Below, one piece after another: positions 12,167 to 16,404 of a DNA stretch of 33,578 nucleotides (its first letter is position 1; every line of letters begins with the position of its first letter). The position numbers and the translations under genes were made by a program. This DNA is from Dysgonamonadaceae bacterium (lineage in GTDB: Bacteria; Bacteroidota; Bacteroidia; Bacteroidales; Azobacteroidaceae): assembly GCA_031289145.1 (NCBI GenBank), contig JAITQA010000030.1:1-33578 (forward strand), written 5' to 3'. The notes beneath the pieces were generated by a model that saw nothing but the letters and a program-made list of their open reading frames with translations, was not told the origin of the DNA and ran no database searches.

Positions 12167-12198
12167 TTTGGTTAATTAAAAAAGAAACGCTACATTTG
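12167..12198 (+). promoter_or_regulatory. Consensus Bacteroidota promoter ahead of tRNA-Arg and the Phe/Tyr leader
   Basis: TTTG (12167-12170), a 20-nt spacer and TACATTTG (12191-12198) form an essentially perfect -33/-7 promoter. Transcription should start near 12205, 16 nt before the tRNA. No clear terminator or second full promoter is seen between the tRNA and the leader peptide, so this may also drive the aromatic operon. Confidence 0.82.
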
Positions 12199-12220: not shown

Positions 12221-12294
12221 GGCTCCGTGGCTCAACTGAATAGAGCATCTGACTACGGATCAGAAGGTTACAGGTTTGAATCCTGTCGGAGTCA
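12221..12294 (+). tRNA. tRNA-Arg (anticodon ACG)
   Basis: A 74-nt cloverleaf. The acceptor stem is GGCTCCG/CGGAGTC with one G-U pair, the anticodon stem TCTGA/TCAGA encloses the loop CTACGGA with anticodon ACG at 12255-12257, and the T-arm ACAGG/CCTGT encloses TTTGAAT. The discriminator is A and the 3' CCA is not encoded. The first anticodon base would be edited to inosine so that it reads CGU, CGC and CGA. Confidence 0.95.
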
Positions 12295-12349
12295 CAAATT
12301 GAAAAAAGGCAATACATTTATGCCGGAATTCATAATAATTCAAAATTAA

Positions 12350-12406
12350 ATGAATCGGTTTTATTTTACATATTCTTTCTTTTACTTTTACTTTAGCATA
12401 AAGTAA
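12350..12406 (+). CDS. Leader peptide of the Phe/Tyr operon (pheL-like)
   Basis: An 18-codon open frame, MNRFYFTYSFFYFYFSIK then TAA. Six codons are Phe and four are Tyr, with ten aromatic residues between positions 4 and 15. Such a run has no likely role as a protein but is typical of leader peptides that sense charged tRNA. It ends directly at the antiterminator arm (12407) and lies about 105 nt upstream of pheA. A ribosome held on Phe or Tyr codons (12359-12394) would leave that arm free, whereas one reaching the stop codon would cover it. The start codon ATG at 12350 is preceded by A-rich sequence (caaaattaa), as usual in this phylum, where Shine-Dalgarno sites are weak. Confidence 0.88.
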   Translation: MNRFYFTYSFFYFYFSIK

Positions 12407-12472
12407 GACAGGATTTTGTATGATAAAACAAAAATGAAAATAAACAATACAAATTAACTATAAAATCCTGTC
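12407..12472 (+). promoter_or_regulatory. Antiterminator hairpin of the Phe/Tyr attenuator
   Basis: GACAGGATTTT (12407-12417) pairs perfectly with AAAATCCTGTC (12462-12472), and the helix extends by G-U, U-A and A-U pairs to 14 bp. The 3' arm is exactly the 5' arm of the terminator that follows, so only one of the two structures can form. The 5' arm starts at the base after the leader stop codon, where a ribosome at the stop codon would mask it. Confidence 0.88.
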
Positions 12473-12494
12473 AGAGATGGCGGGATTTTTTTTT
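12462..12494 (+). terminator. Attenuator terminator before pheA
   Basis: AAAATCCTGTC (12462-12472) pairs with GGCGGGATTTT (12479-12489) over 11 bp with two G-U pairs and a 6-nt loop. The run of nine T (12486-12494) overlaps and follows the stem. It sits 16 nt before the pheA start codon and can only act as a conditional terminator for the operon. Confidence 0.88.
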
Positions 12495-12510
12495 GAAAAA
12501 AAATATGACA

Positions 12511-13365
12511 ATGAAGACTATCGCAATTCAAGGAGTAGAAGGCGCGTATCATGAGATAGCCGCCCGCATGTATTTCAAGGAGAACCGGGGAGAAGAAATA
12601 AACATTCTGCCCTGTTTACAGTTTAAAGATGTGATCGCCGCTGTGAGAAAAGACCCGAATATCATCGGCATCATGGCTATTGAAAACACCATAGCAGGCA
12701 GTTTGTTACAGAATCACGAACTCATCAGGGAAAGTGATTTATTGGTTATCGGGGAGCAAAAAATACGCATCACCCACAGTCTGGCCTCGCTTCCGGAGGA
12801 TTCGCTTGATACAATCACCGAAGTGAATTCCCATCCGATCGCGCTGATGCAATGCGCCGAATACCTGGCTACCCTTCCCAAAATAAAGATTGTGGAAGAA
12901 GAAGATACGGCCTTGAGCGCCAAACTGATTGCAGAAAAAAATTTAACAGGTCATGCTGCCGTATGCAGCAGATATGCAGCGGAATTATATGGATTGAAAG
13001 TCTTGGAAGAAGGCATTGAAACAAACAAACGCAACTTCACCCGCTTTCTCTTAATCGCGAATCGGTGGTTGGCCGAAGAATTGGTTAAAGACAGTGAAAA
13101 TAATAAATCATCGGTTGTCTTTACCCTGCCCCACACCGAGGGAAGCCTTTCTAAAGTGTTGGCTATCTTGTCTTTCTATGATGTAAATCTGACGAAAATC
13201 CAATCTCTCCCTATTCTGGGACGTGAATGGGAATATCTTTTTTATGTAGACCTGACTTTCAATAATCTGTTGAAATACAAACAAGGTCTGGACGCCATCC
13301 GTCCCCTGACGAAAGATTTCAAAACGCTCGGCGAATACAAGGAAAACAACATCACCAACGTATGA
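12511..13365 (+). CDS. pheA: Prephenate dehydratase
   Basis: Converts prephenate to phenylpyruvate, the Phe-specific step. The protein is monofunctional (284 residues) without a chorismate mutase domain; that activity is fused to DAHP synthase two genes on. Visible features are the N-terminal AIQGVEGAYHEIAA, the substrate-site IENTIAGS (about 57-64), the catalytic NFTRFLLI (about 177-184) with the TRF triad, and a C-terminal ACT domain (SLSKVLAILSFYDVNLTKIQ onward) that would bind Phe for feedback inhibition. ATG 12511 is preferred; ATG 12505 is 6 nt upstream and in frame. A TTG at 12493 lies in the terminator and is not used. First gene of the attenuated operon; 23 nt separate it from the aminotransferase. 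Confidence 0.94.
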   Translation: MKTIAIQGVEGAYHEIAARMYFKENRGEEINILPCLQFKDVIAAVRKDPNIIGIMAIENTIAGSLLQNHELIRESDLLVIGEQKIRITHSLASLPEDSLDTITEVNSHPIALMQCAEYLATLPKIKIVEEEDTALSAKLIAEKNLTGHAAVCSRYAAELYGLKVLEEGIETNKRNFTRFLLIANRWLAEELVKDSENNKSSVVFTLPHTEGSLSKVLAILSFYDVNLTKIQSLPILGREWEYLFYVDLTFNNLLKYKQGLDAIRPLTKDFKTLGEYKENNITNV

Positions 13366-13388
13366 ATAAACTTTAAATTATCTACATT

Positions 13389-14552
13389 ATGTCAATTCAA
13401 CCTGCCAATCGCTTAAAAGCCGTCAGTGAATATTATTTTTCCAAAAAGTTAAAGGAAATTGCCGAGATGAATGCCCAAGGATTGGATGTAATCAGTTTGG
13501 GAGTAGGAAGTCCGGATTTACCGCCTTCCGAGGAAGCCGTCGAAATTTTGTGCAATTCGGCCAAACAGGCCGATACCCACGGCTATCAACCCTGCATAGG
13601 GATTCCCGAATTGCGCCGGGCATTTGCCGCATGGTACAAGGACTGGTACAAAGTCGTTTTAAATCCCGATACGGAGATACAGCCTTTAATCGGTTCGAAA
13701 GAAGGCATTCTGCATATTTCCCTGGCATTTCTCAATCCGGGCGACGGGGTTTTGGTTCCCAATCCTGGATATCCTACTTACAGTTCCGTCAGCCGTTTGG
13801 TGGAAGCCCGCATCCTGTCTTATGATTTGAAAGCAGAAAACGGTTGGCAGCCCGATTTTGAAGCGATCGAACAATTGGATTTGTCGGGTGTGAAATTGAT
13901 GTGGGTCAATTATCCCAATATGCCGACAGGCGCCCCCGCCTCTCAGGAATGTTACCGCAAATTGGTCGATTTTGGAAAGAAACACAGCATAATCATTTGT
14001 AATGACAATCCTTACAGCTTTATATTAAACGACAATCCGAGCAGTATCTTAGCAGTAGACGGCGCCAAAGCTATTTGTATTGAATTAAATTCATTGAGTA
14101 AATCCCAAAATATGCCGGGTTGGCGGATAGCCATGCTGGCGGCCAATCCGCAGTTTGTGGAATGGGTGTTGAAAGTGAAAAGCAATATCGACAGCGGCCA
14201 GTTCAAACCGATGATGCTGGCGGCAGCCAAAGCTTTGCAAGCGCCCAAAGCATGGTATGACGGAATGAACAAAATATACCGTAATCGCCGCAAAATTGCG
14301 GAGCATATCATGACCGTGCTGGATTGTACGTTTGACCCTAAACAGTCCGGAATGTTTTTATGGGGAAAAATTCCGGCCAAATACGGAAGCAGCAGTGAAT
14401 TGGCCGATGAAATCCTGTACAAAGCCGGGGTATTTATCACTCCCGGTTTCATATTCGGAAGCAATGGGAATAATTATATTCGTATTTCGCTCTGTTGTAA
14501 GGAAGAAAAATTGCAAGAGGCATTGGAGAGAATAAAAAACAAACTAAATTAA
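13389..14552 (+). CDS. Class I/II PLP aminotransferase of the Phe/Tyr operon
   Basis: A 387-residue fold-type I aminotransferase. PLP-binding Lys238 lies in SLSKSQNMPGWR, and the conserved Asn/Pro region VNYPNMPTGAPAS, the NDNPYSF motif (Asp and Tyr contacting PLP) and the C-terminal Arg in NYIRISLC that binds the substrate carboxylate are all present. Position between prephenate dehydratase and DAHP synthase suggests that it aminates phenylpyruvate and 4-hydroxyphenylpyruvate, or possibly prephenate. Sequence alone resembles the broad LL-diaminopimelate/aspartate aminotransferase group, so the aromatic role is inferred from context. Starts 23 nt after pheA; the next gene begins 5 nt after its stop. 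Confidence 0.88.
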   Translation: MSIQPANRLKAVSEYYFSKKLKEIAEMNAQGLDVISLGVGSPDLPPSEEAVEILCNSAKQADTHGYQPCIGIPELRRAFAAWYKDWYKVVLNPDTEIQPLIGSKEGILHISLAFLNPGDGVLVPNPGYPTYSSVSRLVEARILSYDLKAENGWQPDFEAIEQLDLSGVKLMWVNYPNMPTGAPASQECYRKLVDFGKKHSIIICNDNPYSFILNDNPSSILAVDGAKAICIELNSLSKSQNMPGWRIAMLAANPQFVEWVLKVKSNIDSGQFKPMMLAAAKALQAPKAWYDGMNKIYRNRRKIAEHIMTVLDCTFDPKQSGMFLWGKIPAKYGSSSELADEILYKAGVFITPGFIFGSNGNNYIRISLCCKEEKLQEALERIKNKLN

Positions 14553-14557
14553 ACAAT

Positions 14558-15625
14558 ATGGAATTTGAATCGATTTTATTGCCGGGCATCAGCGAACAAC
14601 GACCGCTGATAATAGCCGGCCCCTGTAGCGCAGAAACAGAGGAGCAAGTGTTAGAAACAGCGAATGCATTAGCTAATAGAGGTATAAAGGTATTTCGCGC
14701 GGGCATTTGGAAACCCCGTACCAAACCGGGTGGTTTTGAAGGCATAGGTGCGGAGGGACTTCCCTGGTTACAGCGTGTGAAAAAGGAGACAGGCATGTAC
14801 GTCGCTACCGAAGTGGCGACAAAAAACCATGTATTAGAAGCGGTAAAACACAAGATTGATATCTTATGGATAGGCGCAAGAACTTCTGCGAATCCTTTCG
14901 CTGTTCAGGAAATTGCCGACGCCTTGAGAATTACGGCTTTCAATGGTCCCGTATTGGTAAAAAACCCGGTGAATCCCGATTTGGAACTGTGGATTGGCGC
15001 TATTGAACGCTTGTACAATGCCGGTATTCGCAAAATAGGTGTAATTCACAGAGGATTCAGCACTTACGACAAAAAATTGTATCGCAATCTGCCCCAATGG
15101 CATATTCCTATTGAGTTGAAAAGACGGATACCCAACCTGCCGCTGATTGGCGACCCCAGTCATATCGGCGGAAAAAGAGAACTGATTGCACCACTCTGTC
15201 AACAAGCTATGGATTTGAATTACGACGGACTGATTATCGAATCGCATTGTAATCCGGACTGTGCATGGAGCGACAAGGAACAACAGATTACGCCGGATAT
15301 TCTATCCTACATCCTGAATCTTATCGTGGTTCGCGATACCAAACAAACGACTGAAAATCTGACGGAACTTCGCCAACAAATTGACGAATTAGATACCGAA
15401 TTACTCGCTATCCTGGCCAAACGTATGCGTGTTTCCAAAGAAATCGGACAATACAAAAAGGAACACAATATGCCGGTATTGCAAACGGTTCGTTACGATG
15501 AAATTTTAGAAAATCGAATCTCACAAGCCGGGAAAATGGGAATGGGAACAAGTTTTATGAAAACCGTGCTGGAAGCGATTCACGAAGAGTCTATCCGGCA
15601 ACAAATAGAAGTTTTGAATCAGTAA
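14558..15625 (+). CDS. Bifunctional DAHP synthase / chorismate mutase
   Basis: A 355-residue fusion. Residues 1 to about 260 form a class I-beta DAHP synthase (KDSA-like): IIAGPCSAETEEQ near the start, the phosphoenolpyruvate-binding KPRTKPGGFEG, LWIGARTSANPF, and the metal-ligand region DPSHIGGKRE followed by IESHCNPDCAWSD. It joins phosphoenolpyruvate and erythrose 4-phosphate in the first step of the shikimate pathway. Residues about 263-355 are an AroQ-type chorismate mutase (ELRQQIDELDTELLAILAKR, then EIGQYKKEHN), making prephenate. The mutase domain probably also serves for feedback control of the synthase, as in related fusions. Placing the entry enzyme inside the Phe/Tyr-attenuated operon lets the end products govern flux into the whole pathway. 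Gaps to both neighbours are 5 nt. Confidence 0.94.
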   Translation: MEFESILLPGISEQRPLIIAGPCSAETEEQVLETANALANRGIKVFRAGIWKPRTKPGGFEGIGAEGLPWLQRVKKETGMYVATEVATKNHVLEAVKHKIDILWIGARTSANPFAVQEIADALRITAFNGPVLVKNPVNPDLELWIGAIERLYNAGIRKIGVIHRGFSTYDKKLYRNLPQWHIPIELKRRIPNLPLIGDPSHIGGKRELIAPLCQQAMDLNYDGLIIESHCNPDCAWSDKEQQITPDILSYILNLIVVRDTKQTTENLTELRQQIDELDTELLAILAKRMRVSKEIGQYKKEHNMPVLQTVRYDEILENRISQAGKMGMGTSFMKTVLEAIHEESIRQQIEVLNQ

Positions 15626-15630
15626 TCATT

Positions 15631-16404
15631 ATGAGAATACAAATTTTGGGCGCAGGCAAGATGGGTTCTTTCTTCGCCGATGTGTTGAGTTTCGAGCACG
15701 AAGTCGCCATTTTCGACTATAATCCGGAACGTTTGCGATTTACTTACAACTGTATCAGGATGACAGACCCGGCAGAAATCGTTGCGTTTAAACCGGAAAT
15801 ACTGATGAATGCCGCCACCGTGAAATATACGATTGATGCGTTCAGACAAGCGCTCCCATACGTGCCGGAAACTTGCATTATTTCAGATATAGCTTCTGTA
15901 AAAACAGGATTGAAAGAGTTTTACGAAGAAACAGGAAGGCCTTTTGTTTCTACGCATCCCATGTTTGGCCCGACTTTTGCTAATCTGGGCAATTTATCTT
16001 CCGAAAATGCAATTATCATATCGGAATCGTCGTACATGGGCAAAATATTCTTCCGCGATTTATACAGCAAATTGAAACTGAATATTTTTGAATATACTTT
16101 TGACGAACACGACGAAACAATTGCCTATTCGCTTTCTATCCCATTCACTTCAACGCTGGTTTTTGCCTCTGTGATGAAACACCAGGAAGCGCCCGGAACA
16201 ACTTTCAAAAAACACATGGATATCGCACGCGGCTTGCTTTCGGAAGATGACTACCTGTTGATGGAAATATTGTTCAATCCGAGAACGCCCAAACAAGTGG
16301 AACAAATCAGAAATGAATTGGCAAATCTGTTGAAAATTATTGAATCCCGCGATTCGGAGGGTATGAAAGCATTTTTACAGGAAGTAAGGCAGAAAATTAT
16401 ATGA
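15631..16404 (+). CDS. tyrA: Prephenate dehydrogenase
   Basis: Oxidises and decarboxylates prephenate to 4-hydroxyphenylpyruvate with NAD(P)+, the Tyr-specific step. The 257-residue protein begins with the dinucleotide-binding loop ILGAGKMGSFFADVL and continues with DIASVKTGL and the family-typical STHPMFGPT, whose His is the catalytic residue. An all-helical dimerisation half follows (HDETIAYSLSIPF). No ACT or chorismate mutase domain is attached, so the protein is a minimal type. It is the last gene of the operon and begins 5 nt after the DAHP synthase fusion. Together the four genes make Phe and Tyr from shikimate-pathway intermediates, leaving only the central shikimate steps elsewhere. 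Confidence 0.93.
   Translation: MRIQILGAGKMGSFFADVLSFEHEVAIFDYNPERLRFTYNCIRMTDPAEIVAFKPEILMNAATVKYTIDAFRQALPYVPETCIISDIASVKTGLKEFYEETGRPFVSTHPMFGPTFANLGNLSSENAIIISESSYMGKIFFRDLYSKLKLNIFEYTFDEHDETIAYSLSIPFTSTLVFASVMKHQEAPGTTFKKHMDIARGLLSEDDYLLMEILFNPRTPKQVEQIRNELANLLKIIESRDSEGMKAFLQEVRQKII

Follow-up and report, generated by a model that had tools for sequence, protein, structure and literature searches.

Several leader RNAs that regulate amino-acid operons through a translated peptide are close to the locus described here. In the enterobacterial pheL, the leader peptide carries runs of Phe codons, hairpins 2:3 and 3:4 compete, and a U run completes the layout; pheL is not known to sense any amino acid but Phe. 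The thrL and ilv leaders of E. coli carry codons of more than one product of their operons. In Bacteroidota, Bacteroid-trp has been reported as a leader RNA (PMC2864571, accessible part). In Flavobacterium psychrophilum, structured 5' elements conserved in Flavobacteriaceae were described before pheA and hisG in 2021; the pheA element matched no Rfam family, and hints of attenuation by leader peptides ahead of amino-acid operons in Flavobacterium were presented (PMC9723704, accessible part). The accessible part of that report does not state that the pheA element is a leader-peptide case, and it gives no leader sequence, Phe/Tyr content or pairing model (PMC9723704). One B. thetaiotaomicron 5' UTR with sORFs has been described ahead of another gene (PMC7366714, accessible part), and the accessible part of PMC2965389 contains no mention of Bacteroid or pheA.

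We analysed a stretch of 33,578 nucleotides, the window, in which a 145-nt element precedes pheA. Sequence comparison indicates that this element is very probably a ribosome-mediated transcription attenuator of the operon consisting of pheA, an aminotransferase gene, a DAHP synthase/chorismate mutase gene and tyrA. Judged from the sequence, the 1:2 / 2:3 / 3:4 layout is that of a classical attenuator and is complete. The parts of the element and their conservation, covariation and spacing can be read directly in the window and its relatives. Positions are those of the window.

12221-12295: tRNA-Arg(acg) gene, ending 54 nt 5' of the leader
12313-12320, + strand: degenerate -7 element TACATTTA; TAnnTTTG stands at this place in most relatives
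12350-12406, + strand: leader ORF MNRFYFTYSFFYFYFSIK of 18 codons, ATG at 12350, stop codon TAA at 12404-12406, conserved in relatives
12358-12388, + strand: arm 1, leader codons 3-13, forming an interrupted helix with 12400-12429, the protector hairpin 1:2
12359-12394, + strand: control-codon run, leader codons 4-15, with six Phe, four Tyr, one Thr and one Ser
12407-12420, + strand: arm 2, the antiterminator 5' arm GACAGGATTTTGTA
12459-12472, + strand: arm 3, TATAAAATCCTGTC, pairing with arm 2 and from 12462 also the terminator 5' arm
12462-12489, + strand: terminator hairpin 3:4 of 12 bp (12462-12473, loop 12474-12477, 12478-12489)
12486-12494, + strand: nine-T run, the first four T also paired in arm 4
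12511-13365, + strand: pheA, prephenate dehydratase (Pfam PDT, E 3.2e-52), start from comparison with relatives
13389-14552, + strand: class I/II aminotransferase of the operon
14558-15625, + strand: DAHP synthase-chorismate mutase fusion, called aroF here
15631-16404, + strand: tyrA, prephenate dehydrogenase

The original prediction for this DNA had proposed an 18-codon leader with six Phe and four Tyr codons, and the leader agrees with it base for base; in MNRFYFTYSFFYFYFSIK the two kinds of codon are interleaved. It had also proposed that an arm at 12407-12417, which starts right after the stop codon, pairs with 12462-12472, and that 12462-12472 doubles as the 5' arm of a terminator with nine T. 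Both pairings were found, and the antiterminator helix is longer than proposed, extending to 14 bp (12407-12420 with 12459-12472). The Pfam match verified that pheA lies downstream. The tRNA-Arg gene and the pairing of leader codons with arm 2 in the long interrupted 1:2 helix were absent from that prediction. The pheA start is most likely ATG 12511 and not the mechanical TTG 12493, because near relatives begin with MKTxAIQG. The identities of the four genes (12511-16404) indicate that the operon makes both Phe and Tyr, and joint reading of Phe and Tyr by the leader fits such an operon. The same gene order follows the element in all three named relatives checked, P. vulgatus (L101), P. distasonis (L089) and D. 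alginatilytica (L106).

With 0.56, the leader has the highest Phe plus Tyr fraction of all ORFs of 12-40 codons in the window (497 on the two strands); the next is 0.33. Folded alone, the 145 nt form 1:2 and 3:4 at -32.5 kcal/mol (z -5.1), and 0 of 200 shuffles were as good. RNA truncated after arm 3 folds into 2:3 (-22.1), and RNA truncated before arm 3 folds into 1:2 (-17.8). Thus the element combines a leader ORF rich in codons for the products of the operon, mutually exclusive and conserved helices 2:3 and 3:4, and a terminator with a U run before the first gene. To these are added a 1:2 protector that includes the control codons, with weak column covariation, and a spacing that, in a fixed-footprint model, leaves arm 2 free when a ribosome stalls and hides it when a ribosome finishes.

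The arrangement suggests the following mechanism. When charged Phe-tRNA and Tyr-tRNA are ample, the ribosome would pass the 12-codon Phe/Tyr-rich stretch and reach the last codons and the stop codon, where it would cover arm 2; 3:4 would then pair and RNA polymerase would terminate at the T run. Under shortage of Phe or Tyr, the ribosome would wait at one of the ten control codons and leave arm 2 free; 2:3 could then form ahead of the synthesis of arm 4, and transcription would continue into the operon. When the ribosome is absent, the leader codons would pair with arm 2 in 1:2, and termination would again be allowed. We infer from the sequences that stalling and read-through would take place in the cell, that shortage of either amino acid alone would be sufficient, and that ribosome-free RNA would be terminated.

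The spacing between the control codons and arm 2 is consistent with this mechanism. The last Phe/Tyr codon is separated from arm 2 by 12-17 nt in 102 of 105 leaders. The ribosome was modelled as a fixed block of 16 nt from the first P-site base, a footprint value that is that of the E. coli ribosome. When the RNA from the window stops at arm 3, every Phe/Tyr codon in the A site gives a P(2:3) of 0.98-1.00, S16 gives 0.88, I17 gives 0.33, and both K18 and the stop codon give 0.00; the mean of 53 of the 105 sequences, for RNA to arm 3, is 0.97 at the last control codon and then 0.71, 0.18 and 0.00. The switch thus falls no later than the third codon past codon 15, and the run of control codons stops at the point where the footprint starts to hide arm 2. 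The scan fixes the downstream limit only, because stalls before the Phe/Tyr codons also free arm 2. The stop codon lies inside or past arm 2 in 57 of the 105 leaders, and with the ribosome at the stop P(2:3) averages 0.22. RNA to arm 3 forms 2:3 also when it carries no ribosome (0.98 in the window, mean 0.65), and 2:3 outcompetes 1:2 at equilibrium; the predicted no-translation branch would therefore require that 1:2 form first. With the ribosome block and at equilibrium, the full-length RNA prefers 3:4 almost everywhere (0.83-0.95 in the window, except 0.48 at F10), and P(2:3) is 0.49 at F10 in the window, peaks at 0.30 as the mean over the 105 sequences, and is 0.00 after the last control codon. 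Since the complete RNA at equilibrium prefers the terminator, the choice would have to be kinetic, made during transcription.

We examined the pheA upstream regions of relatives from three sources: 30 loci from 34 of 38 genomes of the genus, the best 30 loci from 126 of 295 genomes of the order, and the best 80 of 553 matches in named GTDB genomes. The 137 loci gave 121 distinct upstream strings, a sample of near relatives in which at least six loci, recognized by like sequences, were counted twice from two collections (L008/L062, L014/L068, L018/L119, L020/L070, L028/L075, L031/L079). The element is present in 110 of the 121 distinct strings, 105 recognized through leader and arms and five (L021, L057, L080, L099, L108) through the model at 54-98 bits. 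Among the carriers are the culturable gut bacteria Phocaeicola vulgatus ATCC 8482 (L101), Parabacteroides distasonis (L089) and Dysgonomonas (L106). Nine of the 121 strings showed neither a leader nor a model match at E 0.1 (L025, L026, L029, L030, L066, L069, L076, L082, L085); five of these loci belong to a Tannerella sp. MAG, three genomes named 'Bacteroidia bacterium' and Candidatus Azobacteroides pseudotrichonymphae. The upstream region of L009 is ended by the contig edge. In L012 (1373-1481), the leader is lost and the terminator is retained (32 bits) behind a promoter-like TACTTTTG. This locus is a natural deletion, from which low read-out is expected if the attenuator model is true.

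Conservation of the leader frame and of the alternate pairing in relatives had been proposed as a check, and the outcome was favourable for both. In 83 of 83 aligned leaders, the start codon and the end of the conserved FYF lie a whole number of codons apart, a result partly built in because the leaders were preselected as ORFs; the length of the spacer shows no such regularity (36/25/22 by remainder). The alignment used here, A1, was reduced from 99 to 84 and then 83 sequences, with near-duplicates of at least 95% similarity removed; it also omits second tandem copies, L057 and L080, whose arms were misplaced by the script, and L018, which has a shortened leader. In these 83 sequences the covariation score is 0.304 for 2:3 and 0.445 for 3:4 (95.7% paired), against 0.208 and 0.267 in shuffles, with 0 of 500 shuffles reaching either. 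For pairs changed on both sides, shuffles match the alignment in 133/500 (2:3) and 11/500 (3:4), and for further pair types in 204/500 and 23/500; two of the five covariation measures for 2:3 (133/500 and 204/500) thus fail to exceed shuffles. Pairing in 2:3 is 84.9% and fell to 40-49% when the partner was slid by 1-3 columns; in 3:4 it is 95.7% and fell to 39-58%.

Column covariation of 1:2 is weak (0.231 against 0.220 shuffled, 11/500), and alignment-free swap tests were added, in which each arm was paired with its own partner and with partners from other species. In 99 sequences, native pairing gave -14.6 (1:2), -16.8 (2:3) and -16.2 (3:4), against -10.7, -11.6 and -11.4 for swapped partners, and 0 of 5000 permutations reached the native value for each helix. 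The same was seen in 46 elements that lie outside the order and had no part in model building, several of them from the same genera: native values were -16.3, -16.0 and -18.7 against -12.1, -12.3 and -13.4, and again 0 of 5000 permutations reached native for each helix. The 3:4 result in these 46 is not independent, because the search model contains 3:4; the structure of the model is without 1:2 and 2:3. Helix 2:3 is at -10 kcal/mol or better in 44 of the 46, L212 and L216 being weaker. In addition, the 1:2 segment folds better than the mean of 60 shuffles in 103 of 103 distinct elements (mean z -3.1). The conserved frame, the covariation of 2:3 and 3:4, and the advantage of all three native helices over swapped partners support the attenuator interpretation.

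The sequence before the leader holds a degenerate -7 element. TAnnTTTG, which we take to be the -7 element of Bacteroidota, lies at most 70 nt from where the leader begins in all but two of 105 loci (103), the exceptions being the window and L103; in the window this element is one base away from the consensus. A good promoter of Bacteroides type, TTTG at 12167-12170 and TACATTTG at 12191-12198, precedes the tRNA-Arg gene, and no terminator was seen by eye between this gene and the leader. With the -7 element of the leader off consensus and no terminator seen in between, transcription of the pheA operon may start at the tRNA promoter. In the sister locus L003 the tRNA is present too, but TACATTTG is perfect. 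The T arm of the tRNA resembles the attenuator arms; this was taken as a coincidence, because the same arms occur in L004, where no such tRNA is seen by eye.

The neighbouring tRNA gene raises another reading, namely that the hairpin merely ends the upstream tRNA-Arg transcript and that the ORF came to be rich in Phe and Tyr codons by chance, the sequence being rich in T. The 54-nt distance and the T-richness of the region are in its favour, but changes in arm 2 go along with changes in arms 3 and 4, no other of the 497 short ORFs in the window is as extreme as the leader, and L004, with no such tRNA upstream by eye, retains the whole element; we regard this reading as extremely improbable. 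Control might instead be translational, with hairpin 3:4 blocking pheA initiation and transcription not ended. A T run after the stem, with at least five T in 98 of 105 loci (paired T included), and a variable distance to pheA (about 265 nt from leader start to pheA match in L106 and L049 against 155 in the window) speak against such control, which we consider very unlikely even though the likely pheA start is 16 nt after the T run and 21 nt after the stem. The position ahead of an amino-acid operon would also suit a T-box (tRNA-binding) or metabolite-binding leader. However, tRNA is the sole Rfam family at gathering score in the window, T-box included in the search, and at a low threshold 12296-12520 gave 27 Rfam listings, all below gathering and none of them a T-box (PyrR 16.1 against 54 bits), which leaves almost no room for a leader of this kind.

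A ribosome-mediated attenuator could also sense general ribosome slowing or one amino acid only, with the other aromatic codons as filler. Phe codons outnumber Tyr codons (median 6 and 5 per leader), Trp codons occur in 8 of 105 leaders, and any upstream stall frees arm 2 in the footprint scan, all of which would agree with a single signal. On the other side, 102 of 105 leaders have at least three Phe and at least three Tyr codons, Phe and Tyr are frequently exchanged at the same columns, and the operon has both pheA and tyrA; a single signal is thus unlikely. In leader columns 37-57 the variable fraction is 0.01 at codon position 1, 0.17 at position 2 (T or A) and 0.15 at position 3. With position 1 almost invariant and position 2 switching between T and A, one species often has a Phe codon where another has a Tyr codon. 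Such exchange is what a sensor of either amino acid would allow, and it is no proof that each alone is sensed. Trp codons are also found in several leaders outside the order. There, Trp stands beside Tyr and Phe in L162, L170, L171, L172, L173, L174, L181, L184, L185, L193, L195, L197 and L213. Leaders bearing Trp hint at sensing of all three aromatic amino acids.

The distribution of the attenuator was searched with the covariance model R1. The genome of the window has one strong place (130 bits; next 27.9). Its weak matches (21-28 bits) were by eye ordinary terminators, coding sequence or chance. A separate look for His-codon runs in the same genome gave three hits, which by eye resemble ordinary coding sequence. 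The best 50 places by E-value in 396 genomes of the class Bacteroidia comprise 42 before pheA, six before aroF and two before neither gene and without a leader (L191, L196); any R1 match at E 0.001 occurs in 121 of the 396 genomes, many of them partial and weak. The aroF-type copies (L179, L180, L182, L183, L189, L190), before a DAHP synthase-chorismate mutase gene, are all of f134, another family of the class. This family also has pheA-linked members (L173, L184). In G416, pheA lies 2.4 kb past the DAHP synthase gene; for G603, the 9.3 kb of sequence covered showed no pheA. Across the phylum, at E 1e-5, R1 matched in 44 of 392 genomes, 41 of them inside the class. Outside the class, G764 and G831 have the element before pheA with 2:3 at -12.2 and -13.6, and are plausible examples outside Bacteroidia by their sequences; the match in G917 is doubtful, with poor pairing (-6.3).

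Seven loci of the order (L033, L034, L037, L038, L040, L041, L045) have two elements in series before pheA, and both copies of each pair match R1 at E 0.003 or better. The second copy has a different leader (such as MKTFQRFYFYYFYYFMST); a script placed the arms of this copy in four of the seven loci. Where read, the second copy has GGTGGGAT- or AGGTG-type arms. We lean slightly towards the view that an ancestral, phylum-level family of dual Phe and Tyr attenuators guards the aromatic pathway of Bacteroidota, before pheA or aroF, in tandem in some lineages and sometimes with Trp added, on ribosomes without Shine-Dalgarno pairing, so that transcription and translation would be closely coupled. 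Bacteroidia ribosomes do not use Shine-Dalgarno sequences, according to the accessible parts of PMC6847099 and PMC9976891. Such attenuators need a ribosome close behind the polymerase, and this makes coupling of RNA polymerase and ribosome directly testable in the phylum.

The element is like pheL in having a leader with Phe codons before pheA, competing 2:3 and 3:4 helices and a U run, and unlike it in its mixture of Phe and Tyr codons and in the presence of tyrA in the operon. Phe_leader (RF01859) scores 16.1 bits in the window and at best 29.8 bits across nine pheA-linked relatives scanned, against a cut-off of 55. Bacteroid-trp (RF01692, cut-off 49 bits), a leader RNA of the same phylum, was among the matches neither of the window nor of any of the nine scanned pheA-linked loci; the same genome has its own copy at a separate locus (G000:C60:20007-20130, L147, 50 bits), in which the leader MTNLFNAYWWRLFLYKE carries Trp-Trp codons in place of the Phe/Tyr run. 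The original prediction was aware of no described Phe/Tyr attenuator in this phylum. In the open-access literature searched, none appeared by title or start of abstract among the matches listed, and Lopatovskaya 2010 (Mol Biol 44:128) may bear on priority. The phylum is not wholly new ground, because a pheA 5' element and leader-peptide clues were reported in 2021 (accessible part of PMC9723704), and this Flavobacterium pheA element is probably of the same family. The proposed attenuator offers an RNA switch that can be tested in culturable gut bacteria and that stands before an essential pathway, and it falls in no Rfam family at gathering score. Like the thrL and ilv leaders of E. coli, it places codons of several operon-product amino acids in one leader, Phe/Tyr here and Thr/Ile or Ile/Val/Leu there. 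The kind of attenuator is itself known, and this member of it shows wide spread in the class, mixed Phe/Tyr codons and tandem forms.
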